Origin: Nitrospirota bacterium
GTDB lineage: Bacteria > Nitrospirota > Thermodesulfovibrionia > Thermodesulfovibrionales > JdFR-88
Assembly: GCA_021789735.1 (NCBI GenBank)
Contig: JAJYJB010000009.1
Coordinates: 1 to 45,854 of the forward strand
Length of the DNA: 45,854 nucleotides
Direction: 5' to 3'
This document shows, in pieces, positions 2,386 through 20,510 of this stretch. The position numbers and the translations under genes are program-made. How positions within the stretch are numbered: position 1 is the first letter of the stretch; each line of letters opens with the position of its first letter. Under the pieces are notes generated by a model. It was not told the DNA's origin, did no database searches, and saw only the letters and a list, made by a program, of their open reading frames with translations.

Positions 2386-2400
2386 CTCTATTGCCCTCCT

Positions 2401-4760: not shown

Positions 4761-4775
4761 TCAACAAGCGTGCCA
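4760..4775 (-). promoter_or_regulatory. Sigma-54-like promoter of fliK-flgD-flgE
   Basis: The minus strand reads TGGCACG-CTTG-TTGAA: a perfect -24 box and a -12 box with GA in place of the usual GC. It directly follows the terminator of the preceding operon and overlaps the most upstream fliK start codon. The same GC-to-GA change occurs at the flgB promoter. Confidence 0.55.
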
Positions 4776-4827
4776 GGCATTGTACAATCTTTTAAAAGAG
4801 CTTTTATCGCCGGAATTTAAAAGAAAA

Positions 4828-4852
4828 AAGCCGGATATTTAAAATCCGGCTT
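4828..4852 (-). terminator. Terminator after motE-like gene
   Basis: A 9-bp stem AAGCCGGAT/ATCCGGCTT with a 7-base loop lies 43 bases past the motE stop. On the minus strand it is followed directly by a run of six Ts. It separates the basal-body operon from fliK. Confidence 0.8.
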
Positions 4853-4894
4853 CAAATGCACGGGGCTTTTTATGCCGCGTGGGGGCTGAAAGAT

Positions 4895-5823: not shown

Positions 5824-5832
5824 ATCCTTTTT

Positions 5833-7164
5833 TTATGCTTTTTCGTTTTCCGTCAGTGCGTTTTCGCCAAAGATGTAGTAAAGCCCCTGTATGCTGTCCG
5901 CCAGGTCCCGCCTCTCAAGCATGTCCTGCTTAAGATATTCCCTCAGCTTGTCTATCAGGCCCACGGCGTAATCCACTTTTGGGTTGGAGCCCGCCTTGTA
6001 GGCGCCAAGGTTTATCATGTCCTCCATTTTCTTGTATGTGGCCATGGTCTCCATGAACCTGGATGCGTACTGCCTGTGTCTTTCATCCACGATATCGTTC
6101 ATCAGCCTGCTTATGCTCTGCATCACGTCAATGGATGGATAATGGTTTTCCATGGCAAGACTTCTGGAGAGGACTATGTGGCCATCGAGGATGGACCTTG
6201 CCGCATCGGTGACCGGGTCCTGCATATCGTCGCCTTCCGCAAGCACCGTGTATATACCCGTAATGCTGCCCTGTCCCTCGGTGGTGCCGGCGCGCTCAAG
6301 TATCTTGGGGAGGAGCGCAAAGACGGACGGGGTGTAGCCTTTCGTCGTGGGCGGCTCTCCGATGGCCAGGCCTATCTCCCTCTGGGCCTGGGCAACCCGC
6401 GTGAGTGAGTCCATCAACAGAAGGACGTTTTCGCCCTGGGCCCTGAAATATTCCGCTATGGCGGTGGCGGCCAGCGCCGCCCTGACCTTCGCAAGCGGCG
6501 GGTTTTCCGCCGTGGAGACGACCACGACAGATTTTTTTATGCCCTCTTCTCCAAGGTCCTTCTCGATGAACTCACGGACCTCCCTCCCGCGCTCCCCGAT
6601 CAGCGCGATCACGTTTACAGTGGCCTCAGTGTACCTGGCTATCATGCCCAGCAGCACGCTCTTGCCCACTCCGGAGCCCGCCATGATGCCGATGCGCTGG
6701 CCTTTTCCCACTGTCAGAAGACCGTTTATGGCCCTCACGCCCAGGTCCATGGGCTCCTGTATCCGCCTCCTTCCGAGCGGGTTTGGCGTGGGCGATATGA
6801 GTGGAAAATCAACTCCGCTGACCGGCCCCTTCCCGTCCATTGGCAGGCACCTGTCGTTTATGACCCGGCCTTTAAGCAGCGGACCGGCCTTCACGGAGAC
6901 GTTCTTGCCCATGAGCTGCACGCGGCTGCCCGGCTTTATGCCGGACAACTCGCCCGTGGCCATCAGCAATACCTGTCCGTCCCTGAAGCCAACCACTTCG
7001 GCGTCCACCTCGCTGCCACCCGTATGGATCAGGCAGGATTCGCCGATGCTCGTCTCCATGCCGGTTGCCTTGATTATGATCCCTGTGATCTCTGAGACCT
7101 TCCCATAGACCTGCAGAGGGTCCGTATCTTTTACCGCCTCTATGTAGGCCGCAAGACTTATCAT
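5833..7164 (-). CDS. fliI: Flagellum-specific ATPase FliI
   Basis: ATPase energising flagellar protein export, homologous to the F1 beta subunit. In the 443 residues the N-terminal beta-barrel occupies about 1-95. Walker A is GSGVGKS (163-169), followed by the GERGREV segment, Walker B at VLLLMDSLTRVAQAQREIG and the GEPPTTKGYTPSVF stretch characteristic of FliI/type III ATPases. Length equals the family norm. The ATG at 7164 has an AGAGGG site. It is separated from fliH by a 91-base gap, unusually long for this operon; I see no gene there. Confidence 0.96.
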   Translation of the reverse strand: MISLAAYIEAVKDTDPLQVYGKVSEITGIIIKATGMETSIGESCLIHTGGSEVDAEVVGFRDGQVLLMATGELSGIKPGSRVQLMGKNVSVKAGPLLKGRVINDRCLPMDGKGPVSGVDFPLISPTPNPLGRRRIQEPMDLGVRAINGLLTVGKGQRIGIMAGSGVGKSVLLGMIARYTEATVNVIALIGERGREVREFIEKDLGEEGIKKSVVVVSTAENPPLAKVRAALAATAIAEYFRAQGENVLLLMDSLTRVAQAQREIGLAIGEPPTTKGYTPSVFALLPKILERAGTTEGQGSITGIYTVLAEGDDMQDPVTDAARSILDGHIVLSRSLAMENHYPSIDVMQSISRLMNDIVDERHRQYASRFMETMATYKKMEDMINLGAYKAGSNPKVDYAVGLIDKLREYLKQDMLERRDLADSIQGLYYIFGENALTENEKA

Positions 7165-7255
7165 TTACCCTCTGCCGCCTGGCCGCCCCTGTTTTCGATC
7201 ATACTTCCGGTCATGGCTTGCGCGCCGCGGAAACGTTTTTCCCTTTTGCCCGGCA

Positions 7256-7954
7256 TCATTTTTTCCCGGCCTGGCCGAGCCTTTCAGACATCTGCTTGAT
7301 CATGTTCTTAAGCTGCTCATCAATGCCCGTCTCTATCTCCTGCACCGGCCCGGTGATGACCGAGCCAAAGCGTGGCGCCTTCGGGTCCGCCTCGAACACT
7401 ATTTCCCCTGTCCCGGGGTGCAGCATCTCCGGCTTGTACTTGGAAATGACATCGCAGACAAACGGGCTTATCCTGATGGTCACCCTCTGCATTGGCTGCA
7501 TCTTTGAGAGTGCCTCCCTGGTGATCCTCGTGATGGCTTCCGGGTTTATCGTGAGCTCCTCAACGACCATCTGCCTTGCCGCGCTCATCGCCAGTTCCAC
7601 GAACTGTGGCTCTATCTCCCTTATGATCCCTTCTTTCAGGCTGGCAAGCTCCTCGATCGTCGTCTCAAGTCTTTCCACGAGGACCTGGGCCTTCCGCTCG
7701 CCCATGGCATATCCGGCCTCTTCGCCCGTCTTGTACCCCTTTTCAAACGCCTCCCTCTCCAGGGCCTCGACCCGTCCGGATATCTCCGCCAAGGGGTTCT
7801 TTTCCGGCTCACGGGCATCGGACGCTTCAGCCTGGACAGACCTGCCCGACGGAACAAAAGCAAGCCCGCCTTCGAACACGGGCATCTCGAATTGCCTTAT
7901 GCCGACAGCCGGCGCAGCGGCCCCATCCGCATTCGAAAAGCCATCAGACCACAA
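7256..7954 (-). CDS. fliH: Flagellar assembly protein FliH
   Basis: Regulator of the FliI ATPase that links it to the C-ring. The 232 residues comprise a variable N-terminus (1-70), a long charged helical stalk (about 70-120, with EALEREAFEKGYKTGEEAGYAMGE typical of FliH/YscL/V-ATPase E subunits) and a C-terminal domain with KMQPMQRVTIRISPFVCDVI. The apparent start is TTG at 7954, 11 bases inside the fliG end, with GGGAG about nine bases upstream; no in-frame ATG exists nearby. Order fliG-fliH-fliI supports the call. Confidence 0.9.
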   Translation of the reverse strand: MWSDGFSNADGAAAPAVGIRQFEMPVFEGGLAFVPSGRSVQAEASDAREPEKNPLAEISGRVEALEREAFEKGYKTGEEAGYAMGERKAQVLVERLETTIEELASLKEGIIREIEPQFVELAMSAARQMVVEELTINPEAITRITREALSKMQPMQRVTIRISPFVCDVISKYKPEMLHPGTGEIVFEADPKAPRFGSVITGPVQEIETGIDEQLKNMIKQMSERLGQAGKK

Positions 7955-8927
7955 GCTCTTCGTCTCCCTTCCCGGCGAGTATTATCTTCCCCTCGGACTC
8001 CAGCTTCCTTGCGGCCTTCACGATGGACAGCTGCGCCTTTTCCACGTCGGAAACCCTTGCAGGCCCCCTGGTCTGCATGTCTTCTTTCAGCAGTTCGGAC
8101 GCCCTCTGGGACATGTTTTTGAACAGCTTGTCCTTCAATGCCTGCGAGGCGGTCTTCAGGGCCAGCGTCAGGTCTTCTGACGAGACCTCCTTCAGAAGCA
8201 TCTGGATACTCCTGTCGTCCAGCCCGGCAAGGTCGTCGAACACGAACATGAGCTGCCGTACAGAGTCCGCTATTGAAGAGCTCTTCTCTTCCACCGTATC
8301 AAGCACCTTTGATTCCGTGGCCCGGTCGCAGTGGTTCAGTATCTCCGCCAGCGTTTTGGCGCCCTCTATCTTTTTGCCGGCGCCTCCGCCTATATCGATG
8401 TGCCCCTTCAGAAGCACGTTAAGCTCATCTATCACGCTCTCCGGGATGCGCTCTGTCGTGGCTATCCTGTAAGACACCTCGTTCCTTAGCCCCTCTGGCA
8501 GAAGCACGAACACCTCGGCGGCCTTTTGGGGCTCCAGCAAACTTATGATGAGCGCGATGGTCTGCGGATGCTCGGTCAAAAGAAAATTCGATATCGTCTT
8601 GGCATCGACCCACTTAAGGGAGTCCAGGGCGCTTTTTTTCGTGGCAAGTTCCATGACTTTTTGCGCGCTGTCCTCCCCGAAACTCTTCACCAGGACACGT
8701 TTTATGAATGCGTCTCCGCTCACTATAATGTCGCCGTTGGTTATCAGGTCGGTTATCTCATCAATCACGCTGTCGATGGTGGAGCGCCTTATGGAATTGA
8801 GCTTCGCCATCTTTTTTGTTATGTTCTCGACGTATTTCATGTCGAGAGCCTGGAGCACCTTCGAGGCGGCCTCCTCTCCAATGGAAGCCAGGAACACCGC
8901 AGCTTTTTCATATCCGGTAAGCGCCAT
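7944..8927 (-). CDS. fliG: Flagellar motor switch protein FliG
   Basis: C-ring protein that couples stator ion flow to rotation and binds the MS ring. The 327 residues contain the N-terminal domain (LTGYEKAAVFLASIGEEAASKVLQALD), the middle domain with the EHPQTIALIISLL (EHPQ) motif near 118-130, and a C-terminal domain with the charged helix DLAGLDDRSIQMLLKEVSSEDLTLALK that contacts the stator. Length is typical. The ATG at 8927 has AGGAGAA just upstream, nine bases after fliF. Confidence 0.96.
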   Translation of the reverse strand: MALTGYEKAAVFLASIGEEAASKVLQALDMKYVENITKKMAKLNSIRRSTIDSVIDEITDLITNGDIIVSGDAFIKRVLVKSFGEDSAQKVMELATKKSALDSLKWVDAKTISNFLLTEHPQTIALIISLLEPQKAAEVFVLLPEGLRNEVSYRIATTERIPESVIDELNVLLKGHIDIGGGAGKKIEGAKTLAEILNHCDRATESKVLDTVEEKSSSIADSVRQLMFVFDDLAGLDDRSIQMLLKEVSSEDLTLALKTASQALKDKLFKNMSQRASELLKEDMQTRGPARVSDVEKAQLSIVKAARKLESEGKIILAGKGDEELVV

Positions 8928-8936
8928 GGTTCTCCT

Positions 8937-10490
8937 CTATTTCTCCTCCAGCCAGCTTCTGATCAGAAACGCCGCATCATCTGGGTTTTCCCTGGCCCAC
9001 GTTATGACCTTGGTCTCCGAGCTCCCGGTCAGCTCCAATTGCTTTTGCGTCTCTGGTTGCTCAAGCATGTCAGCGATCTCCTGCGGTATCTGCGGTTGAG
9101 GTTTTTCCCCGCCCTTCGCCATGATCATCTTCATGAGCGGCCTGACGACAAAGAAAAAGACCAGCAGGATAAGCACGAGCGGCGCCAGATGGCTTGAGGC
9201 GGAGTAGACCTGCGGCAATATGGCAGGTTTTTTGGGCACGGCGGGCCCTCCCTCGTACGAGGCCTCAAAGGGCATATTGACCACCTCAACCTGGTCGCCC
9301 CTGCCCGATTCGTATCCGATGGCCTTTTTGACCATGCTTTCAAACTGCTTTATGTCTGCCCCGGAGCGCGGTATGTACTGCTTCTTTCCATTCACGGTCT
9401 TGTACGTGCCGTCGACCAGGGCCACAACGGAAAGTCTTTTTATGATGCCCGTCGCGTTTTCTATGTGGCTTGTGACCTCGTTTATCTCATAGTTCACGGT
9501 ATCGTCCGTCTTCTGGGTGCTGCCCCGGGAGGCAAAGACGGCCACGGCGGGCTTGCCCGGCAGGTTGGAGCTTGCTCCGGGAATGCCGCCGGGCGCTCCG
9601 GAGGTGGACATTTCCGTCACCTTGCGCTCGCTCCTGGCTACCTGGCTGTCCGGATCGTAGATCTTCTCCACCTTGTCTATTTTGTCGAAATCCAGGTCCG
9701 CGGTCACTTTCACCTTTACGTTTTCACGTCCGACCACGGGCGCGAGTATCCCGGCCACACGGTCTTCAAGCTGCCTCTCGACCGTGCGCTCGTAATCCAG
9801 CTGGCTGCCCGAAAGGGCCACGCTGTCATCCTGCGGAGAGTTGAGTATGTATCCCTGGCTGTCAACTACCGAGATGTCCTTGGGGTCCAGGCCCTCCACG
9901 CTGCTCGCCACCAAATGGACTATGCCCATGACCTGGCCCTGCGAAAGGTTCGTGCCGGGGGAGAGCTTAAGCAGGACCGAGGCCCTTGGCTTGTCCTGCT
10001 TTGACAGAAGGAAATCGCTGTTGTCCGGTATGGTGAGCTGGACCCTGCACATTTCTATGCCGGAAATGGCCCTTATGGTGCGTGCCAGCTCTCCTTGAAG
10101 CGCCCTCTTATAGTCCACTTTCTGGACGAAGTCCGTGGTGGAAAAATTGTTTTTGTCAAATATCTCAAAGCCGACCCCGCCGTTCTGGGGCAGCCCCTCG
10201 GCCGCGAGCTTCAGGCGCAGCAGCGCGACCTTGTCCGAAGGCACCATCAACCCCTGCGCAGTGGCCTTGTACGGTATCTTCATCGCGTCAAGCTTCTGCA
10301 TGATGAGCCCCGCGTCCTCATCCGTCAGGTTGGAATAAAGCAGGCTGTAATTTGTCCTCTCCATCCATGAAACCGAAAATATGAGGGAGGCTATCACGAG
10401 GACCACCGCCGCAGCCAGCGCGGCCTGCTTTTTCCTGGGCAGGGCCTTTACCTGCTCCAGCAGTGGCTGAAGAGAAGACAGGGAGGGCAT
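8937..10490 (-). CDS. fliF: Flagellar MS-ring protein FliF
   Basis: Inner-membrane ring on which the rotor and export gate assemble. The 517 residues show an N-terminal membrane segment (about 22-44), the YscJ/FliF secretin-like domain (NYSLLYSNLTDEDAGLI, AEGLPQNGGVGFEIFD), a large periplasmic part, a second membrane segment near 425-447 and a C-terminal FliG-binding tail (VITWARENPDDAAFLIRSWL). Its ATG overlaps the fliE stop (TGATG). Length is typical. Confidence 0.96.
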   Translation of the reverse strand: MPSLSSLQPLLEQVKALPRKKQAALAAAVVLVIASLIFSVSWMERTNYSLLYSNLTDEDAGLIMQKLDAMKIPYKATAQGLMVPSDKVALLRLKLAAEGLPQNGGVGFEIFDKNNFSTTDFVQKVDYKRALQGELARTIRAISGIEMCRVQLTIPDNSDFLLSKQDKPRASVLLKLSPGTNLSQGQVMGIVHLVASSVEGLDPKDISVVDSQGYILNSPQDDSVALSGSQLDYERTVERQLEDRVAGILAPVVGRENVKVKVTADLDFDKIDKVEKIYDPDSQVARSERKVTEMSTSGAPGGIPGASSNLPGKPAVAVFASRGSTQKTDDTVNYEINEVTSHIENATGIIKRLSVVALVDGTYKTVNGKKQYIPRSGADIKQFESMVKKAIGYESGRGDQVEVVNMPFEASYEGGPAVPKKPAILPQVYSASSHLAPLVLILLVFFFVVRPLMKMIMAKGGEKPQPQIPQEIADMLEQPETQKQLELTGSSETKVITWARENPDDAAFLIRSWLEEK

Positions 10491-10783
10491 CAGAGCTGCA
10501 TCCCCATTATCTGCTCATAGGCGTTCAGTATCTTGTTCCTGACCTCTACCATGAGCTGAAAGTTCAGATTGGCCTTTTCCATCTCTATGATGGCCTGGGT
10601 CATGTCCCCGCCGTTTGCCAGGTCGTTTGCGGCCTTGTCCGCGCTCTGCTGTACCTGGCCGACCTCGTTTATGGCCTGGTTCATCATCTCGTCAAAACCC
10701 TGACCGTCATTTTTTTGACCCGCGCCCTTAAGCCCGCCCAGACCGCCCAGATGGCCGCTTCCGTTTATTTCCATGCCGGACAC
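10490..10783 (-). CDS. fliE: Flagellar hook-basal body protein FliE
   Basis: Adaptor between MS ring and rod. The 97 residues carry the conserved C-terminal block (MTQAIIEMEKANLNFQLMVE, then VRNKILNAYEQIMGMQL). The GTG start at 10783 abuts the flgC stop and is preceded by GGAGGG at a nine-base distance; an ATG three codons later would be much farther from it. It lies between flgC and fliF as in most flagellar operons. Confidence 0.94.
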   Translation of the reverse strand: MSGMEINGSGHLGGLGGLKGAGQKNDGQGFDEMMNQAINEVGQVQQSADKAANDLANGGDMTQAIIEMEKANLNFQLMVEVRNKILNAYEQIMGMQL

Positions 10784-11197
10784 TTAGAACTGCCCTCCAA
10801 GTTGCAGGGCCTTGCTGAACATGGCCTTGGAAGTATTGAATGTCGACACCTGGGCCTCGTAGGACCTGTACGCGGTCATCATATTGACCATCTCCTCCAG
10901 CACATTTATGTCCGGCATCTTGACAAAGCCGTCCTTGTCCGCATCCGGGTTGGAGGGGTCATAGACCTTCTGAAAGTCGTTCTCCTTGACCACGGATGAG
11001 ACCTGGACCCCGTCCAGATCCTGGTCGCCGGACTCGATGGGCATTGTGGAGAAGATGACCTCCCTTTTCTTGTACGGCCCCCCGCCCGCCGACTTGGTGG
11101 ACTGGGCATTTGCCATGTTGGAAGCTATAGCGTCCATCCGCTCCTTCTGGGCCTTCATGGCCGAGGCGCTGACTTCAAGCATGCCGAAAGAATCCAT
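10784..11197 (-). CDS. flgC: Flagellar proximal rod protein FlgC
   Basis: Rod subunit exported through the type III gate. The 137 residues have the N-terminal rod signature (LEVSASAMKAQKERMDAIASNMANAQ), the GGPYKKREVIF segment and the C-terminal NVLEEMVNMMTAYRSYEAQVSTFNTSKAM helix that packs in the rod. The ATG at 11197 has an AGGAGG site. It lies 12 bases after flgB. Confidence 0.96.
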   Translation of the reverse strand: MDSFGMLEVSASAMKAQKERMDAIASNMANAQSTKSAGGGPYKKREVIFSTMPIESGDQDLDGVQVSSVVKENDFQKVYDPSNPDADKDGFVKMPDINVLEEMVNMMTAYRSYEAQVSTFNTSKAMFSKALQLGGQF

Positions 11198-11209
11198 TTT
11201 TTAATCCTC

Positions 11210-11587
11210 CTATACTGTCCTTATGTCGGCCTGGTACATGCTCATCTCCGTGCCGAGCAACTTTATACCGGCCTCATAAAGCATCGCGTTTTCATCCATT
11301 TTTGCCACCTGCATGTCTATCTGCACGTTGTTTCCGTCCTTCCAGGGCGCGGACTTGTCCAGATGGACGGACTCATCGTCGGAATCGGACATGGGCGGGT
11401 CGATGTCCCTTTCGTTCGTCAACATCAGCGGCAGACCGCCGCCCTGCAGAAAATCCTCGAACCTGATGTCCTTTGCCTTGTAGTCAGGCGTATCGGAGTT
11501 TGCAATATTGGAAGCCAGGACACCCTGCCTTTTTTGCGTGAAGCCGATGAGCCGCTCAAGTGTATTGCCGCCTACGGGCTGTGTCAT
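11210..11587 (-). CDS. flgB: Flagellar proximal rod protein FlgB
   Basis: First gene of the basal-body operon, encoding a rod subunit. The 125 residues show GFTQKRQGVLASNIANSDTPDYKAKDI near the N-terminus and a C-terminal helix DENAMLYEAGIKLLGTEMSMYQADI. AGGAGAAG lies upstream of the ATG. A sigma-54-like promoter 38-53 bases upstream of the start codon, directly after the gene for an FlrC-like activator, suggests class III flagellar control. Confidence 0.95.
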   Translation of the reverse strand: MTQPVGGNTLERLIGFTQKRQGVLASNIANSDTPDYKAKDIRFEDFLQGGGLPLMLTNERDIDPPMSDSDDESVHLDKSAPWKDGNNVQIDMQVAKMDENAMLYEAGIKLLGTEMSMYQADIRTV

Positions 11588-11624
11588 TTTTTTAACTCTT
11601 CTCCTGTCATATTGACCTTATGTA

Positions 11625-11640
11625 TCAATAATCGTGCCAG
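11625..11640 (-). promoter_or_regulatory. Sigma-54-like promoter of the flgB-motE operon
   Basis: The minus strand reads TGGCACG-ATTA-TTGAT, with a perfect -24 box and correct spacing; the -12 box has GA instead of GC. The predicted start is near 11613, 26 bases before flgB. It sits between the end of an FlrC-like sigma-54 activator gene and the first basal-body gene. Confidence 0.6.
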
Positions 11641-11672
11641 CTTAAAAACACGCGGAGAAAAACAAAAAAACA

Positions 11673-11692
11673 AAAAAGAAGGTCCATCCTTG
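11673..11692 (-). terminator. Weak terminator-like site after the FlrC-like gene
   Basis: A small AAGG/CCTT stem with a five-base loop (11680-11692) is followed on the minus strand by a C and then a T-run (11673-11678). The stem is too short for confidence; it may permit read-through into flgB. Confidence 0.25.
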
Positions 11693-11707
11693 AGCAAAAA
11701 ATTCCCC

Positions 11708-13060
11708 TCAGGAAAAATTTTCCCCATATTCCTTGAGCTTGTTCCTTATCGTCCTGACGCTGACGCCGAGTATCTTTGCCGCCATGGTCCTGTTTCCGTC
11801 AACGCCTTTAAGGGTGTCCATTATAAGTTGCCTCTCCATGTCCCTGATTTTCCCGGCGGGGGCGTCCTCCGCGCGGCATTTTACCTGCTCGAACATGAAA
11901 TCGGACTCATCTATCAGCGGGCCTTTCGCCAGGAAAACGGCCCTGTGCATTACGTTCTGGAGCTCCCTTATGTTGCCGCGCCATTTTTTTGCCATCAGGA
12001 CGGCCATGGCCGCCGGGCCAATGCCCTCTGTGTGCTTGCCTGCAAGAAGTGAAAAGGTCTTTATGAAGTGGTTTGAAAGCGCCTCGATGTCCTCCGGCCG
12101 CTCCCGCAGCGGAGGAACATTTATCGGGAAGACGTTGAGCCTGTAATAGAGGTCTTCCCTGAACCTGCCCTCCCCGCATTCCTTCCACAGGTCCCGGTTG
12201 GTGGTGGCGATTACCCTTACGTCCACAGGCACCGGGGATTTCCCGCCGACCCTGTCTATCTCCTTCTCCTGCAACGCCCTCAACAGCTTTGCCTGGAGCA
12301 GCAGAGGCATTTCCCCTATCTCATCAAGCAGTATGGTCCCTCCGTGCGCAAGCTCGAACTTCCCTTTTTTTCTGTCCACCGCGCCGGTAAAGGAGCCCTT
12401 TTCATGCCCGAAGAGCTCCGACTCAAGCAGGTTGTCCGGTATGGCCGCGCAGTTGACCGCGATGAAGGGCTTGTCCGCCCTCCTGCTTGACCTGTGTATG
12501 TGCCTTGCCAGCAGTTCCTTGCCCGTGCCGGACTCTCCCTCTATGAGCACCGTTATATCGGAGGCCGCCAGCTTTCCGGCCAACTCGATGATCTTTTTCA
12601 TGCCGGCGTTGACCGTTATAAGCTCCTGCGTCCCGCCGTCTCCACTCCGGACCTCCGCGGCCGAGGCGATGATCGACTCAACGGCCTTCTGGAGCCTGTC
12701 GAAGGGGAACGGCTTCACCAGGAAGTCCGTCGCTCCCTCCTTCATCATCTCCACTGCGGTCTCCACCGTGCCAAAACCGGTTATGACGAGCACCGGCAGG
12801 GGGCTGCTGCCGCGCCTTACCTCTTTCAGCAGGGCCATGCCGTCCATGCGCGGCATCCTCATGTCCGTAACCATCATGGAGAATTCGGCGCCGGGCTGGC
12901 GCAGCTTGTCGAGCGCCTCCTGGCCGTTTCCGGAAAGGACGACATCATAGCCCATCCTGCCGATGGACTCCTTCATGGCGAGCCTCATCTGCGGGTCGTC
13001 GTCCACAACCAGGACGGTTTTTGTTTTCTTGCCGTCTTTAGACGTCTGGGCGCAGTCCAA
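11708..13060 (-). CDS. FlrC/FleR-like sigma-54 response regulator
   Basis: NtrC-family activator of 450 residues: receiver domain (about 14-130, acidic pocket DDD at 20-22, phosphoacceptor D66 in VTDMRMP), AAA+ domain (about 150-390, Walker A GESGTGKE, loop 1 written GSFTGA rather than GAFTGA, Walker B ILLDEIGEM) and a Fis-type helix-turn-helix (AKILGVSVRTIRNKLKEYG). The TTG start at 13060 is supported by GGGAGG about eight bases upstream. It follows the PAS kinase by 63 bases and precedes the flgB sigma-54 promoter, matching the FlrB-FlrC/FleS-FleR arrangement that activates class III flagellar promoters. The assignment is from context and the Fis domain; the exact targets are inferred. Confidence 0.85.
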   Translation of the reverse strand: MDCAQTSKDGKKTKTVLVVDDDPQMRLAMKESIGRMGYDVVLSGNGQEALDKLRQPGAEFSMMVTDMRMPRMDGMALLKEVRRGSSPLPVLVITGFGTVETAVEMMKEGATDFLVKPFPFDRLQKAVESIIASAAEVRSGDGGTQELITVNAGMKKIIELAGKLAASDITVLIEGESGTGKELLARHIHRSSRRADKPFIAVNCAAIPDNLLESELFGHEKGSFTGAVDRKKGKFELAHGGTILLDEIGEMPLLLQAKLLRALQEKEIDRVGGKSPVPVDVRVIATTNRDLWKECGEGRFREDLYYRLNVFPINVPPLRERPEDIEALSNHFIKTFSLLAGKHTEGIGPAAMAVLMAKKWRGNIRELQNVMHRAVFLAKGPLIDESDFMFEQVKCRAEDAPAGKIRDMERQLIMDTLKGVDGNRTMAAKILGVSVRTIRNKLKEYGENFS

Positions 13061-13123
13061 AAAATTTTCCTCCCGTATTTTTTGTAGCGTCCCCTGAAAC
13101 GGAAAAGCAGTTTTTTATTTTTG

Positions 13124-14293
13124 TCAGGACGCCGTTTTGTCCGCCAGATCAAAATACATGCTGAAAGTGCTGCCCTTGCCAAGCTCGCTTGAAACCCGTA
13201 TGTACCCTCCGTGGGCCTGCATTATCTTGGACGCGATGGCCAGGCCCAGGCCGGACCCTTTTTCCTTCGTGCTGAAAAAAGGGTCGAATATCTTCTCGAT
13301 GTTTTCGGGCTCTATGCCAGGCCCCTCGTCCTTTATATCGAGGACGGCGCACTCGCCTTCCGAGCGCAGGCAGACCTCGATCGAACCCCCTCCGCCCATG
13401 GCCTGGGCCGCGTTTATGGCCAGGTTCATTATCGTCTGCTTAAGGAGCTCCCCGTCCCCCCGGACGTCCCAGTCTCCGGCGTACCTCTTCTGCGTCCTGA
13501 CGCCGCGGGACTCCATGAAAGGAGAAAGAAGCCAAAACACCTCTTCCGATATCTGCCTCAAACTGACCCTGGCCATGACTGGCTTTTGCGGCCTTGCGAA
13601 AAAAAGCATGTTAGTAAGTATGTTGTTCAGGCTGTGTATGCCGGCCGATATCCCTCCGGCCAGTTCCTTTTGTTCCTTTCCCTGCACGTCGCGCTCCAGC
13701 ATTGAAGCAAACAGCTCTATGCTGCACAGGGGGTTTCTGATCTCGTGGACTATCTTTGCCGCCATCTCGCCAAGGGATATCAGCCTTTTGTTGCGTTCGT
13801 GCAAGGCCTCCATCCGCCTCATCGCGGTAACGTCCTTAATCTGTATGACCCTGCCCCTCGGTGCGCCATTTGAATCCACGACGGGAGAATCGGAAACGAT
13901 GACGTTGTATTTCCTGCCGCCTGCCTCCAGCACAAGCCCCGCCCCGTTCTCGGAGATGGACATGGGCAGCCCTGAATAATCACCTCCGGCCATGGCCTTT
14001 GCCATTTCCCCGGAGAGCCCCAGGAGACGGGCCGCAGATTTGTTCATCATGGTCACCTTTTCCCTTTGGTCAAGGACGATTATTGCCTCCTCCATGCTGC
14101 ACAGGACGGCATCCAGGTAGTCCTTGTTCTTTTCCGCCTCCCTGAGCGCATCGATGAGCCTCACGTTCTTGTCCTGGAGCTCCTCCGTGAGGGTCTCGAT
14201 CCTCTTTTGCAGCGCAGTATAGCAGGCTTCCAGGCTCCTCGATGCCTTGGTAAAGCTGTCAAAAGCGGTATTAAGGAGAGTTACATCAGCCAA
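13124..14293 (-). CDS. FlrB/FleS-like PAS histidine kinase
   Basis: Soluble sensor kinase of 389 residues with no membrane segment: N-terminal coiled coil (about 25-60), PAS domain (about 60-160), HisKA dimerisation domain with phosphorylated H183 in AKIVHEIRNPL, and HATPase_c domain (about 285-385; N box NLAINAAQAM, G boxes DEGPGIE and GSGLGLAI). The start is TTG at 14293 with AAGGAGG upstream. It sits between the TPR gene (18-base gap) and the FlrC-like activator gene, so it very probably phosphorylates that activator. The cytoplasmic architecture resembles FlrB/FleS, which sense flagellar assembly state. Confidence 0.85.
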   Translation of the reverse strand: MADVTLLNTAFDSFTKASRSLEACYTALQKRIETLTEELQDKNVRLIDALREAEKNKDYLDAVLCSMEEAIIVLDQREKVTMMNKSAARLLGLSGEMAKAMAGGDYSGLPMSISENGAGLVLEAGGRKYNVIVSDSPVVDSNGAPRGRVIQIKDVTAMRRMEALHERNKRLISLGEMAAKIVHEIRNPLCSIELFASMLERDVQGKEQKELAGGISAGIHSLNNILTNMLFFARPQKPVMARVSLRQISEEVFWLLSPFMESRGVRTQKRYAGDWDVRGDGELLKQTIMNLAINAAQAMGGGGSIEVCLRSEGECAVLDIKDEGPGIEPENIEKIFDPFFSTKEKGSGLGLAIASKIMQAHGGYIRVSSELGKGSTFSMYFDLADKTAS

Positions 14294-14311
14294 AAAAGAG
14301 GTCCTCCTTTC

Positions 14312-16162
14312 TCATCTTTCCTTCATGACCTTTGTCTCAAGGAGCCTGGCGGCCGCATATCGCGCCATAAGACCACCGTCATTTTTCAGGCTGTCAAGGG
14401 CCGTTTGCGGGTCCTTCTGCAGAGACTGCATCCTGTAAAGGGTCCATTTCAGGTCCTCGGCCGTCAGCCCCGTATGCCCACTGGCGGACACCCGGCCGGC
14501 ATAAGCCTGCTTATAGAGTTGCAGCGCCTGTGTCTTCAAGCCCCTGGTGTACGTGGCATCGGCCAGTGACAGGTAAAGCGGGGCCGGCACATCCGTGTTC
14601 CCGTCCCTGATGCGTTTTTCGATAAACCCGATTGCCCTTGCGTCTCCGGCATGTCCGATCGTCCTTGCAAGCAGCAGTAAGTCCTGCTGCGAAAGCGTCT
14701 TTACGGAAAGGAGCGCCCTTTGCGAAGCCGCATAGTTGCCAAGGAGGAAATAGACGCCCGCCTTCAGGCGCAGCGTAGCGTCATCATGACCGGTCAGTCT
14801 TGCCATGCGCAGCAGGCCTTTTGCTTCCTTCGCCTTCCCCCTGGCCACGCAATAGCCTAAAAGCCTTCGGGCGGCCTCTGTCTTCAGCATGGGTGAGCCG
14901 TTCCTGACAATCCAGGAATACAGACTCGCGGCCTGTTCCATGTCCGACGCCTCCAGCAGGCCGGCCGCCTTGAAAATAAAGCCTGCCCTTGCCGGCTGCG
15001 TCAGGCTCATACCGGCAGTTTTCCAGAGGGCGGGAAAAAGCGCGGGGGAATTGTCCATCGCATCTTCAATGATCTTCTGCAGCCCATCGGCGGCCCGGAG
15101 CGCGTAATCCTTTTTCACAAGCAGGCCCTTCAGGATGTCCGCCGCCTTCAGAGCATTCCCCTTCCGGGCCTCCGCCCTGGCCAGAAGCAAAAAGGCATCG
15201 TTTCTGAGCTTGCCGCCAAACAGGTCCTGCGTCACCCGCTTTAAAAGCCCGATGGCCTCACCTGTTTTGCCCAGCTCAATGTAGCATTGCGCCAGGTCAA
15301 TGAGCGCCTTGTGCCTGAGTGCGCCGCGCGAAGAGCCCGAGGCGGCCTGGAACAGAGATGCCGCATCGCCTAAACTGCCCTCTTCCGCCGCAATGAGCCC
15401 AAGCGAAAAAGAGGCCCTGTGGGAATACTCCCCTGCCCTGACGGACCCCAGGAACGCCTTAGCCTCATCGGTTTTTCCCAGAAGCTTGCACGCCTCCCCC
15501 ATGCTGTACATGGCAAGATTAGAGGCCGCCGCGTCCCGGTTTCTGTTTTTCTCCGCCAGGACCTTTTCACCGGTAGGCTCGCCCATGCCCAGGGACTTAA
15601 ACAGCTCGTACGCATCCTTGGTCCGGCCTGTAGCAAAAAGCGCCTCCGCCTTGCCGTACATCGCCTCCGGGTTGTCCCCGGCCTTTTCATAGTTGGCCAG
15701 GGCCTGCTTGTAATGGACGGTCTTGAAGAGCGCGTTTGCAAGGCCCAGGTGGGCCCTTTCGGAAAATTCCGATTTCTTGAAGGTCTTTAAAAATATCCTG
15801 AAAACGGAGGCGGCCTCCTGATAAAAACCGATGTCCTCGTAGACCTCAGCCCTTTCAAGAAGCGAGAGCTCTTTTTTCCTGCCTTCAGGGAAATAGAGAT
15901 AGGCAAGCCTGTAGGCCTCCAGTGAATCATAAAGCCTGTTTGCCCCCCTGAGCGCCTTTGCGTAAACATAATTGTATTCGGCAAACTCGCTCATGGGGGG
16001 CTTATACGCCTTGAGCATCGCGACGGCGGCCTGCGGCCTGCCGTTATTGATTTCCACAAGGGCCCTGTCCAGTACGGACTGGGCAGGGGGAGCGGCCCCC
16101 GATGACTCGGGGGCCATAATGAAAGCGCCAAGAAAAATGAATATCAGGAACAATTTCTGCAC
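14312..16162 (-). CDS. Exported TPR-repeat protein of unknown function, in flagellar regulatory operon
   Basis: I do not recognise a named family. The 616 residues begin with a hydrophobic signal-like segment (about 3-18, then ESSGAAPPAQ) and consist of repeated helical pairs with TPR spacing (for example YNYVYAKALRGANRLYDSLEAYRLAYLYFP, then AVFRIFLKTFKKSEFSERAHLGLANALF, and AAEEGSLGDAASLFQAASG), so it is probably a periplasmic scaffold. It is the first gene of an operon with an FlrB-like kinase and an FlrC-like activator and is preceded by a consensus sigma-54 promoter. The start is a GTG at 16162 without a ribosome site; a TTG lies three codons on. Possible roles are a flagellar/stator scaffold comparable to the TPR proteins PflA/PflB/FlgX-type disks of other polar flagella, or an assembly checkpoint; both are inference. 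Confidence 0.7.
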   Translation of the reverse strand: MQKLFLIFIFLGAFIMAPESSGAAPPAQSVLDRALVEINNGRPQAAVAMLKAYKPPMSEFAEYNYVYAKALRGANRLYDSLEAYRLAYLYFPEGRKKELSLLERAEVYEDIGFYQEAASVFRIFLKTFKKSEFSERAHLGLANALFKTVHYKQALANYEKAGDNPEAMYGKAEALFATGRTKDAYELFKSLGMGEPTGEKVLAEKNRNRDAAASNLAMYSMGEACKLLGKTDEAKAFLGSVRAGEYSHRASFSLGLIAAEEGSLGDAASLFQAASGSSRGALRHKALIDLAQCYIELGKTGEAIGLLKRVTQDLFGGKLRNDAFLLLARAEARKGNALKAADILKGLLVKKDYALRAADGLQKIIEDAMDNSPALFPALWKTAGMSLTQPARAGFIFKAAGLLEASDMEQAASLYSWIVRNGSPMLKTEAARRLLGYCVARGKAKEAKGLLRMARLTGHDDATLRLKAGVYFLLGNYAASQRALLSVKTLSQQDLLLLARTIGHAGDARAIGFIEKRIRDGNTDVPAPLYLSLADATYTRGLKTQALQLYKQAYAGRVSASGHTGLTAEDLKWTLYRMQSLQKDPQTALDSLKNDGGLMARYAAARLLETKVMKER

Positions 16163-16173
16163 GAAAAGGAAAA

Positions 16174-16189
16174 AGCAATTAACGTGCCA
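16174..16189 (-). promoter_or_regulatory. Consensus sigma-54 promoter of TPR-kinase-activator operon
   Basis: The minus strand reads TGGCACG-TTAA-TTGCT, an essentially perfect -24/-12 element. Counting 12 bases from the GC puts the mRNA start at about 16163, directly next to the GTG start codon of the TPR gene. A dyad upstream (16239-16256) lies at about -85, a usual place for activator binding. Confidence 0.8.
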
Positions 16190-16238
16190 AAAATAAAATG
16201 CTTGTTTTAAAAGGATTTTATCTGGACCGTGAAGGGAA

Positions 16239-16256
16239 ACGTCACGAAATTGACGT
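16239..16256. promoter_or_regulatory. ACGTCA-N6-TGACGT dyad, possible sigma-54 activator site
   Basis: A perfect 6-6-6 inverted repeat lies in the short gap between the stop of the FleQ/FlrA-like gene and the sigma-54 promoter, centred about 85 bases upstream of the predicted start. Enhancer sites of NtrC-family activators are dyads in this position. Binding by the adjacent activator is inference. Confidence 0.45.
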
Positions 16257-16290
16257 CAGGAAACGGGCCCATCCGGGAAGAAAGGCAGCT

Positions 16291-17745
16291 TCAGGAGATG
16301 TGGGCCTCTATATTCATCTTTTTCATTTTTTCCACGAGCGTGGTCCTGTTCAGGCCCAGGAGTTTTGCGGCCTTGCTCTTTACGCCGCCCGTTTTCCCGA
16401 GCGCCTGAAGGATGAGGTCCCTTTCCATCTGCTCAACGGCCTTTGTAAGGTCCATCCCGGAATCGGAAAGGCCGGCAGCGGCCAAAGGCCTTTCTTCTTT
16501 TTCAGGCGTGCCAGGCCCCGCAGGGGCCGCTTCCTCCACGGGCGTGCAGACAGGCCTGGTGGTGGATGCCTTCATTGCCGTGTAGAACTTGGCAGGCAGG
16601 TCGGAAACCTCTATTGTGTCCTTGGAGACAAGGATGGTAAGCCTTTCGAGCAGGTTCTCAAGCTCTCTGACATTTCCAGGCCAGTGATATCCGAGCAGGC
16701 ATTCCATCGCCCCCGGCGAGATCTCAACGGACTCTCTCTTCCTCTTTTTCACAAGCTCCTTTTTGAAGAAGTCCACGAGCAGCGGTATGTCCTCCACTCT
16801 TTCCCTGAGCGGGGGCAGGTGGATGGGAATCACATTCAGCCTGTAATACAGGTCTTCCCTGAACTTGCCCTCCTCTATCGCCTTTTCGAGGTCCTTGTTG
16901 GTGGCGGTGACTATTCTTACGTCCACCTTGATGGTCTTGCTGCCTCCCACCCGCTCGAACTCCTTCTCCTGGATGACCCGGAGGACCTTCCCCTGAAGGG
17001 ACATGTCCAACTCGCCTATCTCGTCCAGGAAAAGGGTGCCGCCAGCGGCAAGCTCAAAGCGGCCTATACGCGTGTTCAGCGCCCCTGTAAAGGCGCCTTT
17101 CTCGTGCCCGAAGAGCTCCGATTCCAGCAAGTCCTTGGGTATGGCTGCACAGTTGAGCGGCACAAAAGGCTGCTGCGCACGCGAGCTGTTGAAATGTATG
17201 GTCTTGGCGATGAGCTCCTTTCCCGTGCCGGACTCTCCGGTGATGAGGATGGTGCTGTCTATGTCGAATATCTTCTCAATCATTTCATAGACCTGTTGCA
17301 TCCTCGGAGAATCGCCAATGAGGCCCTCAAACCTGTATTTTTTTCTCAGATGCCTCTTGAGCATCCTGTTCTCGTTCTGAAGCTCGGAAACCCCGATGCC
17401 CCTTTCAACGACCATCATGAGCTCATCCAGCACGAACGGCTTGGTGATGTAATCGAAAGCGCCGAGCTTCATGGCCTCCACCGCCGTCTGGACGGTCGCA
17501 AAAGCCGTCATAACGATGCACGGGGAGGATATTTTCAGTTCGGCCATTTTCTTAAGAAGGTCGATGCCCCCCATATCGGGCATCATCAGGTCCATCAGGA
17601 CAAGGTCGAATTTTCCGCCCTTAAGGACGTCAAGCGCCTGGAAGCCGTCCGAGGCCGTGGCCACCTTGAACCCTTTGCCACGGAAAAAGATGTCGAGGGA
17701 ATCCCTTATAAAATCGTCATCGTCAACGATAAGAAGGTGTTTCAT
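16291..17745 (-). CDS. FlrA/FleQ-like sigma-54 response regulator
   Basis: NtrC-family activator of 484 residues: receiver (1-120, acidic DDDD at 8-11, phosphoacceptor D52 in [10 protein letters not shown]), AAA+ domain (about 140-380, [23 protein letters not shown]), a linker rich in Pro/Glu/Ala (about 400-440) and a Fis-type helix-turn-helix ending [20 protein letters not shown]. The RTTLVEKM ending is the pattern seen in FleQ/FlrA. Unlike many FleQ proteins the receiver keeps its phosphoacceptor, and a hybrid kinase gene sits 93 bases upstream. It precedes a consensus sigma-54 promoter, suggesting it is the master activator of the following operon. No ribosome site is visible before the ATG. 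Confidence 0.82.
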
Positions 17746-17756
17746 CTACGCAACAT

Positions 17757-17785
17757 ACTAAAACACCGAAAAGCTAAATGTCAAT
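17757..17785 (-). promoter_or_regulatory. Possible sigma-70 promoter of the FlrA-like gene
   Basis: A perfect -35 TTGACA (17780-17785) forms half of a TGTCAA-TATT-TTGACA palindrome (17780-17795). The -10 is ambiguous: TTTAGT with 17-base spacing (17757-17762) or TAGTAT with 19. Transcription would start only a few bases before the ATG at 17745. The palindrome over the -35 is a candidate operator. Confidence 0.45.
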
Positions 17786-17838
17786 ATTTTGACAAAAAAG
17801 AAAAAACCTTGTTTTGAAATGAAGAATTTTTTATTTTT

Positions 17839-20481
17839 TTATTTTCCAATGGCCCGCTGAAGGACCTCCGCCAGGTCCTCGACCCTGTAAGGCTTGCAGA
17901 TGGCGCCCTTGAACCTGAACTCCCCGTAATTTGAAAGTATCGGGTCTTCAGAATAGCCGCTGGAGGCGATGGCCACCGCGCCGGGGTTTATCTCAAGGAG
18001 TTTTCCGACGCATTCCTTTCCGCCCATGCCACCCGGTATGGTGAGATCCATGATGACCGCCGCATACGGTGCTCCGGCAAAGAGGGCCCTTGAATAGGTC
18101 TCGATGGCATGGGCGCCATCCGGCGAGAGGTCCACCTGGTAACCAAGGTCCCCGAGCATCCTGGCCGCCACATCCCTTACCATCTCGTCATCGTCCACAA
18201 CGAGTATCCTGCCCTTCCCGCCTATTCCCCCGGCGCGGCCGTCCGGTCCGCCCCCGCCGGCTTTTTCTGTGGAGATGGGCAGGTAGAAATAAAAAGTGGC
18301 CCCCTCGCCGTACACGGACTCCGCGCTTATATATCCTTCATGCTTTTTTATTATGGAGTAGGCCGTGGCCAGCCCAAGCCCGTTGCCGCACTCCTTCGTT
18401 GTGAAATAGGGGTCGAAGATGCGCGGGAGTATGTCGCCATGTATGCCTGTGCCGGTATCGGAAACGGAAACCTTGACGTATTTCCCCGGTTTTAAAGGCA
18501 GGTTGCCGGAAGGCCCGACATCCATCTTTTCCACCCTTACCGATATGACGCCCCCCACGGGCATGGCCTGGTTCGCGTTTATGAGCAGGTTCTGCATCAC
18601 CTGGCTTATCTGGCCCTCGTCTATGCTCGTTTCAGGTATGTCCTCCGGGACCATATAGACGCACCTGACCCCGGGCCCCTTGACCGCAAAATCCACGTTC
18701 TCCCGGACAAGGTCTGCGATCGAGGCCATTTTTTTTACCGGTCCGCCGCCTTTTGAGAACGTAAGGAGCTGGCGTGTAAGGTCCTTTGCTCTAACAGAGG
18801 CCTTCTCAGCCTTATCCAGCCTCTCTCGCACCTTTTCGCCGGTTGCCATTTTGGCAATGGATATATTGCCTATTATTGCGGTAAGGATATTGTTGAAGTC
18901 GTGGGCTATGCCTCCGGCCAACACCCCGACGGACTCCAGCTTCTGGATCTTGAGGCGCTCTTCCTCCAGCCTCTTTTTTTCGGTTATGTCATTGAACACG
19001 AGCACCTTCCCGATGATCCTGCCGCTTTTTTCGCGTATTGGAGCGCGCCTGTATTCGATCACGCTCTGCCCGCCGCTGCGCGCCTTCAAAAAAGCGGTCT
19101 TTACGGCAACGGGGCCGGCTTTTTCGTCCGTATCGGCCGCCTGTCCGGGCCATGCCGCCTGTCTTGCCCCCTCTATATCGAAGACCTCAGTGATGCTCCG
19201 GCCAATTGCCTCCTCATGGTTCCACCCGGTGAGGTCTCCGGCCACCTTGTTCATCAGGAATATCCTGCCCTCGTTGTCGGTGGTTATGACGCCGTCCCCG
19301 ATGCTCCTCAAGGTCACGGAAAGCCGTTCCTTTTCAGCGGCAAGCGCCTCCTTTGACCTCTCATTGTCCGTGATGTCCCTGCCAACCCCGGCTATCCCGG
19401 CTATCTGCTTGCGGGCGTCAAGGATGGCCTTGAAGGTCCAGGCGAACCAGCGCTGCCCGTTTTTCGTCATGACCCGGTTCTCGACATATCCGGTGTGGGG
19501 CGGCCTCAAGGTTTCCGCAAGGGAGTCAAGTGTGCATTCGCGGTCCTCCTCCATGACGAAAAAGTGCAGATGGGTCCTGAGCAGCTCTCTTTCTTTTTTC
19601 CCAAAGACATCGCAAAAAGAGGGGCTTGCGAAAAGGAACCCGCCGTCAGTGTCCAGTTTCACTATTACATCGCTCTGGTTTTCCACCAGGAGCTGATATT
19701 TTTCCGTCTTCTCCTGCAAAGCAGCATAAAGGCCCGCTATGTTTATGGCCGCCGCCGCATGGCTTGCGAAAAGCCTGACTATGGCCTTGACCTGCCCGCC
19801 CATCGCCTCCTTTTCCCTTTTGAACACGGTAAGACAGCCTATGATCGCCTCCTTGCTTTTAAGCGGAATGGCAGCCGCGTAATGAAAGCCTTTGTCCATG
19901 GCCAACCTTTCAAGGGACTCAAACCCGCACGTTTCAAGGCACTCCAGTATCTCGTCCCTTATTACGGATTCGATCACAAAGTTGTCCTCGGGCTTCAGGC
20001 TGGACGGCACGCTCTGCAGGGATTCCTCTTCCAGGCCGGCACAGTCCTTGAAACACATTACACCGCGTTCGTTGACAAGCCAAAGTACGGCCGCATCCGC
20101 CCAGCCCAGGGACAGGGCTGACCCGGTTATGGAGGCGGCCAGTCTGTCTATATCCAGGGACTGAAGGTTCTTGGCGTTCTCATCGTGCAGCCTTATCAGC
20201 CATTTTATGTCCTCGTTCTGTTTTCTGATTATCTCGTCCGCATCGAGGCCATGGGAGGGGACGGCATGGGCCCCGGAGCGGCCCGGGTCTTTTTCCGGCC
20301 TTTTGCCGCCTTCTGAAATGTTTTTTTGTTTTTGCTCCGCATGATTTCGGGACGTCCCGGAGCGCCCGGTCAAAGGGGCCGCGAGATAAATAAAAAACCT
20401 CTTCAGGGACCCAAGTGAACGTGAAAACGGAAAAACCTTTTTCTCTTCCTTGCCGTCCATCATCGCGCTTTGAAGCAACAT
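17839..20481 (-). CDS. GAF-PAS-PAS hybrid histidine kinase with C-terminal receiver
   Basis: Cytosolic sensor of 880 residues. Order: charged N-terminus (1-80); GAF domain (about 105-250); two PAS domains (about 262-375, ending in VGRDITDNE, and 385-500, ending in VFNDITEKK); HisKA with H527 in GGIAHDFNNIL; HATPase_c (about 615-740, NLLINANQAM, GTGIHGD, GNGLGLA); receiver (about 755-880) with DDD at 763-765 and acceptor D812 in AAVIMDLTIPGG. The receiver could act in phosphotransfer or feedback. It lies just upstream of the FlrA-like activator gene, its likely partner (inference). The start may be the ATG at 20463 or 20460, because a TATAAT box abuts the ATG at 20481. Confidence 0.85.
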   Translation of the reverse strand: MLLQSAMMDGKEEKKVFPFSRSLGSLKRFFIYLAAPLTGRSGTSRNHAEQKQKNISEGGKRPEKDPGRSGAHAVPSHGLDADEIIRKQNEDIKWLIRLHDENAKNLQSLDIDRLAASITGSALSLGWADAAVLWLVNERGVMCFKDCAGLEEESLQSVPSSLKPEDNFVIESVIRDEILECLETCGFESLERLAMDKGFHYAAAIPLKSKEAIIGCLTVFKREKEAMGGQVKAIVRLFASHAAAAINIAGLYAALQEKTEKYQLLVENQSDVIVKLDTDGGFLFASPSFCDVFGKKERELLRTHLHFFVMEEDRECTLDSLAETLRPPHTGYVENRVMTKNGQRWFAWTFKAILDARKQIAGIAGVGRDITDNERSKEALAAEKERLSVTLRSIGDGVITTDNEGRIFLMNKVAGDLTGWNHEEAIGRSITEVFDIEGARQAAWPGQAADTDEKAGPVAVKTAFLKARSGGQSVIEYRRAPIREKSGRIIGKVLVFNDITEKKRLEEERLKIQKLESVGVLAGGIAHDFNNILTAIIGNISIAKMATGEKVRERLDKAEKASVRAKDLTRQLLTFSKGGGPVKKMASIADLVRENVDFAVKGPGVRCVYMVPEDIPETSIDEGQISQVMQNLLINANQAMPVGGVISVRVEKMDVGPSGNLPLKPGKYVKVSVSDTGTGIHGDILPRIFDPYFTTKECGNGLGLATAYSIIKKHEGYISAESVYGEGATFYFYLPISTEKAGGGGPDGRAGGIGGKGRILVVDDDEMVRDVAARMLGDLGYQVDLSPDGAHAIETYSRALFAGAPYAAVIMDLTIPGGMGGKECVGKLLEINPGAVAIASSGYSEDPILSNYGEFRFKGAICKPYRVEDLAEVLQRAIGK

Positions 20482-20510
20482 ATTATAAATAATAAATTTT
20501 TACTTTTAAA
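20482..20510 (-). promoter_or_regulatory. Sigma-70 promoter abutting the hybrid kinase start
   Basis: The minus strand has TTTAAA (20505-20510), 17 bases, then a perfect TATAAT (20482-20487) touching the ATG at 20481. Transcription would start near 20475, after that ATG, so translation probably begins at one of the tandem ATGs at 20463/20460. Confidence 0.55.

Follow-up and report, generated by a model that had tools for sequence, protein, structure and literature searches.

The 45,854-nucleotide stretch analysed here (the window; contig JAJYJB010000009.1 of an uncultured Nitrospirota bacterium) carries a flagellar locus that, in our judgement, quite probably encodes a three-tier transcriptional programme with a receiver-AAA+-helix-turn-helix (HTH) activator, which we call RR1, at its top. 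All of its features lie on the minus strand, in the order radical SAM gene, hybrid histidine kinase (HyHK), RR1, tetratricopeptide-repeat protein (TPR), histidine kinase HK2, activator RR2, flgB-flgC-fliE-fliF-fliG-fliH-fliI-fliJ-motE, terminator-like hairpin and fliK-flgD-flgE. Every element that a sequence-only reading of the window had named, from the hybrid kinase to fliK-flgD-flgE, is thus present in the order given, and coordinates could be assigned to each (Table 1). As that reading also held, each activator gene ends just 5' of the promoter it should drive, an order that is conserved in relatives.

RR1 finds a match in all 295 Nitrospirota genomes searched, which is no surprise for an NtrC-type protein; we fetched the 30 best, and since these orthologues are the best-scoring of the 295 genomes, the counts given here are no estimate of frequency in the phylum. 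Gene order was read in longer stretches around 20 of the 30 loci, and this comparison with related genomes bears out the order RR1-TPR-HK2-RR2-flgB-flgC-fliE at 17 of the 20 (two of the 17 are less regular: the second gene at locus L068 is a TPR gene by Pfam only, and RR2 at L066 is split). The five sequences of the window's own clade that span the locus (the window, L001, L002, L004 and L005) all keep the order, the four relatives matching it over the whole span between the radical SAM gene and motE; the shorter L003 and L006 contigs conform to it as far as they extend. Six contigs encode a relative of the TPR protein, all of them from 'Nitrospirae bacterium' metagenome-assembled genomes, and rpoN was found in four of four close relatives. 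The layout is real and conserved.

The RR1 and TPR genes are preceded by the same DNA element. The window contains six copies of the palindrome GTCA-N6-TGAC where 0.37 would be expected. Within the 120 bp 5' of RR1 a copy is present in 32 of 34 rows (mean 0.04 in mononucleotide shuffles), or, with the duplicate L004/L013 counted once, in 31 of 33 distinct genes. The right half-site doubles, in 25 of the 32 boxed rows, as the -35 element of a promoter of the form TTGACn-N16..19-TAnnnT; in the window, likewise, the right half of the box is part of the TTGACA upstream of RR1. The -10 element stands 5–9 nt from the RR1 start codon in 24 of these 25 rows and 12 nt from it in L031, a spacing that rests on an incorrectly set start. 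Since RNA polymerase would be hindered by a box that overlaps the -35, the arrangement is most naturally read as self-repression of RR1. An exact box lies upstream of TPR at 17 of 23 loci, and a box with at most one mismatch at 21 of 23 (0.02 and 0.8 in shuffles), and the gap between exact boxes and the TPR sigma-54 promoter is 41–52 bp, once 74 bp. The motif is that of the proposed FleQ consensus GTCaNTAAAtTGAC given in part of PMC6120874; passages of PMC10723142 describe FleQ sites as inverted repeats GTCAAT/ATTGAC, and a section of PMC4641369 gives yGTCA-N6-TGACr as the predicted autoregulatory site of the FlrA/FleQ-like protein DVU2894 of Desulfovibrio. The dyad noticed earlier before the tier-2 promoter is thus a FleQ/FlrA-type box, and a recurrent one. 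In relatives G003 and G004 a box and sigma-54 promoter pair also precedes fliL-fliM...flhB-flhA (L041, L044); Pfam supports fliL, fliM, flhA, flhF, an flhG-like gene and a fliA-like sigma factor gene in G003, and the other gene names in that cluster were read from N-terminal sequence. Genome-wide counts of the palindrome and of its reversed control in four relatives are 24/10, 22/18, 43/13 and 35/16, an excess in all four that is clear in three.

Further copies of the box were noted outside these settings. In G003 (L047:5392-5483) an RR1-type box and sigma-54 promoter stand before a pilM-like gene cluster (named from N-terminal reading). Box and promoter core are identical to those at that genome's fliL promoter, and one master regulator may serve both flagella and type IV pili there. 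In G004 such a pair (L048) stands before a gene of 1895 aa adjoining a fliW-like gene, also named from its N-terminal reading. At L062:9603-12313 the RR1 orthologue lacks flagellar neighbours; after it come a box, a sigma-54 promoter and a gene that resembles PAS kinases. Within the window, three palindromes lie in coding sequence of fliE/flgC, at 10691 and 10706 (10691-10719) and at 10875-10888, the flgC palindrome recurring in L001, L002, L004 and L005 and the fliE palindrome in L001 and L002; a lone GTCATCGTCATGAC palindrome at 30464-30477 has no sigma-54 promoter nearby.

Only the three named promoters in the window match TGGCACGN4TTGCW with at most two mismatches, GG at -25/-24 and TG at -14/-13, and all three recur at the same positions in L001, L002, L004 and L005. 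The consensus -24/-12 sequence claimed for the TPR promoter stands, but at -12 the flgB and fliK promoters read TTGA[AT] and not TTGC[AT]. The -12 dinucleotide is GC in 23 of 23 TPR promoters and GA or GT in 19 of 21 flgB promoters, a tally that excludes L053 (no credible promoter) and in which the consensus used to pick promoters itself contains GC. We considered and rejected a -12 'code' that would separate RR1 from RR2 promoters: the fliL promoter, with its RR1 box, has GT.

The RR1 protein resembles FleQ at its DNA-binding end. Its HTH aligns with that of FleQ (8p53, 5exx) at RTTLVEKM, NRTTL[IVL]EK is kept in 31 of 31 RR1 sequences, and GAFTGA is invariant in all 31. So are receiver residues D9, D52, T80 and K102, and the phosphoacceptor D52 is thus retained, as the sequence-only reading had it. 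The position of FleQ R144, mapped by alignment, is R in one of the 31 sequences, and that of R185 holds K 25 times and R six times, a conservative change. PF06490, which we take to be the FleQ N-terminal domain, is not among the seven Pfam matches of RR1 (PF00072 is) in a scan made without FleQ as a positive control. FleQ has, according to passages of PMC10723142, a phosphorylation-incompetent receiver, and its residues R144, R185 and R334 contact cyclic di-GMP (c-di-GMP). The label 'FlrA-like' therefore holds for the DNA-binding end and the sites but fails for the receiver and the R144 position, with the AAA+ domain undecided; because the DNA end is FleQ-like but the defining protein features fail, RR1 looks like a variant of FleQ/FlrA and not a member. 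A phosphorylation-responsive top tier is likely, since the receiver is intact in 31 of 31 sequences and FleQ's R144 is rare, and an intact receiver on what is by sequence a FleQ-type master, in many Nitrospirota, is a new element. RR1 helix-1 residues differ between the window's clade and the others; no clear case for a specificity switch could be made from them.

The genes downstream of RR1 are consistent with the second and third tiers. HK2 (PAS-HisKA-HATPase) adjoins RR2 (receiver-AAA+-HTH), which is the architecture of an FlrBC/FleSR pair, the domain make-up of FlrB/FleS being as described in PMC7064773, and the AAA+ domain of RR2 scores 265 bits with FlrC and 239 with FleQ. Gene order, domains and the box before the tier-2 promoter together support the proposed two-tier order of an FlrA-type activator followed by an FlrBC-like pair. 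TGACA/TGTCA words are concentrated 3' of the predicted flgB +1 (16 against 2.5 in shuffles, none of 500 reaching 16) and number five against 3.4 on its 5' side, as counted at 15 loci, five of them from close relatives, with mononucleotide shuffles and with a contribution from flgB start codons (ATGACA). In the window this cluster spans 11538-11623, 3' of the flgB promoter. In part of PMC4641369, DVU1063 is a two-component activator that has targets among the flagellar genes; some of its sites lie 40–70 bp downstream of promoters. That likeness is suggestive only, and makes the cluster a candidate downstream enhancer for RR2. The TPR proteins begin with a hydrophobic, signal-like stretch at the 17 loci displayed and are probably exported. 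The TPR orthologues at L066:7462-9738 and L067:11231-13675 have an extra N-terminal region, without a Pfam match, before the repeats. We also considered the TPR protein as a known motor part; profile, PDB sequence and fold searches gave only generic TPR solenoids, and the idea was dropped. A periplasmic motor scaffold of C. jejuni (9hmf_K) ranks 28th in Foldseek (E 7.1e-7, TMq 0.31) amid unrelated TPR proteins and is absent from the 50 rows of a second fold comparison, which speaks neither for nor against a motor role.

With +1 placed 12 nt beyond the -12 position, an in-frame start codon (ATG, GTG or TTG) lies 0–5 nt from the predicted +1 at 23 of 23 TPR loci (promoters being the best match near the gene with up to three mismatches, and L002 being read by hand); in the window the TPR GTG (16162) is at about +2. 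The fliK start is offset by 1–2 nt at five of five clade loci; in the window it is likelier to be 4748 than 4760, the first fliK ATG, as the latter lies upstream of the predicted +1. The leaders of flgB are mixed across loci and mostly longer. Genomes G001-G004 contain 80 sigma-54 sites against eight for a reversed control; 70 of the sites were read, and 19 have an ATG frame of at least 70 aa at offset 0–5, the frames per offset being 3.2 at 0–5 against 0.82 at 6–60 and 0.55 at 61–120. Eight further genomes give 152 sites against 27, of which 30 were read and seven qualify (1.17 per offset at 0–5 against 0.47 at 6–60 and 0.23 at 61–120). The sites of this census are not independent, as homologous genes recur in it, TPR among them. 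Sigma-54 promoters with a start codon 1–5 nt past the predicted +1 stand before genes of several unrelated families, at L081, L082, L089, L095, L096, L102, L105, L107 and others. A sigma-70 test on 133 rough open reading frames with uncurated starts found 33 with a Shine-Dalgarno-like word and a mild excess of TAnnnT 5–8 nt before ATG. By geometry, then, the TPR and fliK messages look leaderless and that of RR1 probably is; this leaderless geometry is a new element of the system, and at sigma-54 promoters it is possibly a trait of the lineage. In C. jejuni, as a portion of PMC3847290 has it, sigma-54 boxes lie 8–13 nt before +1, and leaderless mRNAs are linked to sigma-70 and poorly conserved. 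Among the literature matches listed we recognised none on leaderless sigma-54 transcripts, which is no proof of absence.

These findings suggest the following programme. A sigma-70-type promoter whose -35 lies within an RR1 box would make RR1, which probably limits its own synthesis. RR1, its activity probably set by phosphorylation of D52, would bind GTCA-N6-TGAC about 85 bp before the +1 of TPR-HK2-RR2 and open sigma-54 promoters there and, in two relatives, at the fliL...flhA operon. By analogy with FlrBC/FleSR, a pair whose activity depends on export apparatus, MS ring and rotor, HK2 would sense the completed export apparatus and phosphorylate RR2, which would then open the sigma-54 promoters of flgB..motE and fliK-flgD-flgE. 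In the window's clade HyHK, with its GAF and PAS sensor domains, would be the source of phosphate for RR1, a step that has about an even chance of being right; outside the clade another kinase would be the phosphodonor. The TPR, fliK and probably RR1 mRNAs would begin at or within a few nt of the start codon.

The identity of the RR1 kinase is a point at which the sequence-only reading, which gave RR1 its own hybrid kinase and held that the top of the cascade may respond to a signal, needs revision. HyHK and RR1 are adjacent and in the same orientation at five of five spanning clade loci (L001, L002, L004, L005 and L006), with HyHK identity down to 64%, and it is this conserved adjacency that connects the two. 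For the sensor half of HyHK (451 aa), matches of nearly full length, at 65–90% identity, exist in four of 24 genomes, all in the window's clade. In the other 20 genomes with RR1 no close orthologue was found: three are without a sensor match at E 1e-10, and in the remaining 17 the matches are distant and fall largely in the PAS region, with identities of at most 53% over some 130 residues (the match in G161 covers 37-451 at 23%, as might be seen with a generic PAS kinase). HyHK therefore cannot be the general input, and RR1 also seems to use its own promoter rather than that of HyHK. The intact receiver keeps the idea of a signal-responsive top alive, but not with this hybrid kinase as its general source; the invariance of the receiver where HyHK is absent speaks for a phosphorylation of RR1 that does not need HyHK. 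Thus HyHK as the kinase of RR1 fits the window's clade but not the other genomes, where D52 is kept without it. We tentatively entertain, as the less probable course, that HK2 or an unlinked kinase serves RR1 and that HyHK has another target; HK2 could even supply RR1 as well as RR2, which would close a positive loop. RR1 has a complete receiver in the 20 genomes where HyHK has no close orthologue, and HK2 lies near RR1 at 17 of 20 loci; both would agree with this, as would the hybrid nature of HyHK: all 12 rows of Hpt matches in four relatives fall in open frames of at least 554 aa, e.g. CheA, which leaves a relay from the HyHK receiver through Hpt to RR1 without an obvious middle member. That same gap makes direct phosphotransfer from HyHK to RR1 likelier than a relay. 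Against a kinase other than HyHK stands the conserved adjacency, and in a scheme with HK2 the kinase would be produced only after RR1 had acted.

RR1 might instead be active without phosphorylation, like FleQ/FlrA, under the control of its concentration, FlhG/FleN or a ligand, with D52 merely structural. The apparent FleQ-type DNA binding and autoregulatory site of RR1 are compatible with this, as is the flhG-like ParA-family gene after flhF in G003; we nevertheless think it unlikely, as the whole catalytic receiver set beyond D52 is invariant, unlike the incompetent receiver attributed to FleQ in PMC10723142 (in part), and the FleQ R144 position is almost never R. It is very improbable that RR1 is an ordinary NtrC-type regulator beside a flagellar locus, its FlrA likeness over-read and its boxes the property of another regulator. 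The best NCBIfam models for RR1 are AtoC and NtrC, both below their cut-offs, its AAA+ domain is undiscriminating (312 bits with NtrC, 310 with FleQ, 295 with FlrA and 233 with FlrC), and a passage of PMC6120874 calls the FleQ consensus unreliable across ChIP-seq peaks; yet one type of box is shared by the promoter of RR1 and by the sigma-54 promoters of TPR and fliL, from which it lies at enhancer distance, and the recognition helix is of FleQ type. Several further observations also weigh against the programme proposed here. Gene order is broken at three of 20 loci, L050 (RR1-TPR, then genes that are motility-like by their first residues) and L061 and L062, where RR1 has no flagellar neighbours in the stretch read; the exact own box is missing in two of 34 RR1 rows, and the box before the TPR promoter is not exact at six of 23 loci, being two mismatches off at two of these. 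A looser consensus scan, without the GG/TG filter, gives 12 sites in the window against 24.2 in shuffles, and terminator-like hairpins are frequent in the region (36 against 20.7). Consensus matches alone therefore prove nothing, and the evidence is position and conservation.

Two annotations need comment. HyHK probably starts at 20463 rather than at ATG 20481, because a TATAAT-like -10 (20487-20482) abuts the latter. The name motE is supported by position, but its Pfam MgtE_N match is sub-threshold (24.6 bits, cut-off 25.9).

Table 1. Features of the flagellar locus in the window
Feature	Coordinates	Strand	Basis
HyHK, hybrid histidine kinase, GAF-PAS-PAS-HisKA-HATPase-receiver	17839..20481	-	Pfam; upstream of RR1 in L001, L002, L004, L005, L006
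RR1 own box GTCAAAATATTGAC	17780..17793	-	Motif scan; upstream of RR1
RR1 sigma-70-type promoter (-35 TTGACA, -10 TAGTAT, spacer 18)	-35 17784-17779; -10 17760-17755	-	Promoter-like match
RR1, receiver-AAA+-HTH activator, D52, GAFTGA, recognition helix NRTTLVEKM (FleQ-type)	16291..17745	-	Pfam, alignment
RR1 box (dyad) GTCAATTTCGTGAC, 51 bp gap to tier-2 promoter	16241..16254	-	Motif scan
Sigma-54 promoter of TPR TGGCACGTTAATTGCT, 0 mismatches, predicted +1 ~16163	16174..16189	-	Consensus scan
TPR, tetratricopeptide-repeat protein, N-terminal hydrophobic signal, GTG start, apparently leaderless	14312..16162	-	Pfam, promoter geometry
HK2, FlrB/FleS-like PAS-HisKA-HATPase kinase	13124..14293	-	Pfam
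RR2, FlrC-like receiver-AAA+-HTH activator	11708..13060	-	Pfam, AAA+ comparison
Sigma-54-like promoter of flgB operon TGGCACGATTATTGAT, 1 mismatch, -12 = GA, predicted +1 ~11613	11624..11639	-	
flgB-flgC-fliE-fliF-fliG-fliH-fliI-fliJ-motE, presumed operon	4895..11587	-	Pfam; motE by position
Terminator-like hairpin and T-run 3' of motE	4827..4853	-	Hairpin scan
Sigma-54-like promoter of fliK-flgD-flgE TGGCACGCTTGTTGAA, 1 mismatch, predicted +1 ~4749	4760..4775	-	
fliK, proposed start 4748, apparently leaderless	2910..4748	-	Pfam Flg_hook
flgD (2401-2805) and flgE (1108-2385)	1108..2805	-	Pfam

The closest known systems are FleQ (Pseudomonas) or FlrA (Vibrio) with FleSR or FlrBC, in which an activator acts on a sigma-54 promoter for a kinase/activator pair that leads to rod, hook and basal-body promoters; the FleQ-type HTH, the GTCA-N6-TGAC boxes and, in two relatives, the box and sigma-54 promoter before fliL...flhA add to the likeness. 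Unlike FleQ, RR1 has an intact receiver, lacks a conserved R144 and does not have PF06490 among its Pfam matches; unlike FleSR/FlrBC, the kinase operon is headed by a TPR gene with an export signal, and the TPR and fliK messages are apparently leaderless. DVU2894 of Desulfovibrio vulgaris shares the predicted box-type autoregulation, but in the part of PMC4641369 concerned it is a single-component protein with GAFTHA, while RR1 has a receiver and GAFTGA. Phosphorylation that feeds a flagellar hierarchy has precedents, by analogy, in Geobacter FgrM and Stenotrophomonas FsnR. The title of a 2012 study of FgrM by Ueki reportedly names a multicomponent His-Asp phosphorelay. FgrM, likened to RR1 here by description, is an RpoN-dependent enhancer-binding protein essential for flagella according to a passage of PMC8844916. 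FsnR is a response regulator whose conserved Asp53 matters for flagellar gene activation, and it is described as acting upstream of FlrA rather than as being the sigma-54 activator (PMC9600515, in part). A search for literature joining Nitrospirota, flagella and FleQ found none. The plan of the cascade is thus ordinary, and the input and mRNA architecture are a new variant. The fuller statement, in which the FleQ/FlrA-type master of the Nitrospirota kept or regained a working receiver and is free of the c-di-GMP control seen in FleQ, phosphorylation by exchangeable kinases (HyHK in this clade) switching the top of the cascade, and in which sigma-54 transcripts of the phylum are often leaderless, with RR1, TPR and fliK translated without a Shine-Dalgarno sequence, seems to us evenly poised between right and wrong.

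FleQ is the textbook two-component-type regulator whose receiver takes no phosphate and which responds to c-di-GMP and FleN. RR1 of the Nitrospirota shares the DNA target of FleQ and has an intact receiver; the phylum would offer an outgroup that may preserve an older input, and flagellation in these uncultured bacteria is predicted to be under the control of a kinase. The conserved boxes define a regulon and make the targets of RR1 testable, and the leaderless sigma-54 geometry, if true, would correct gene starts.

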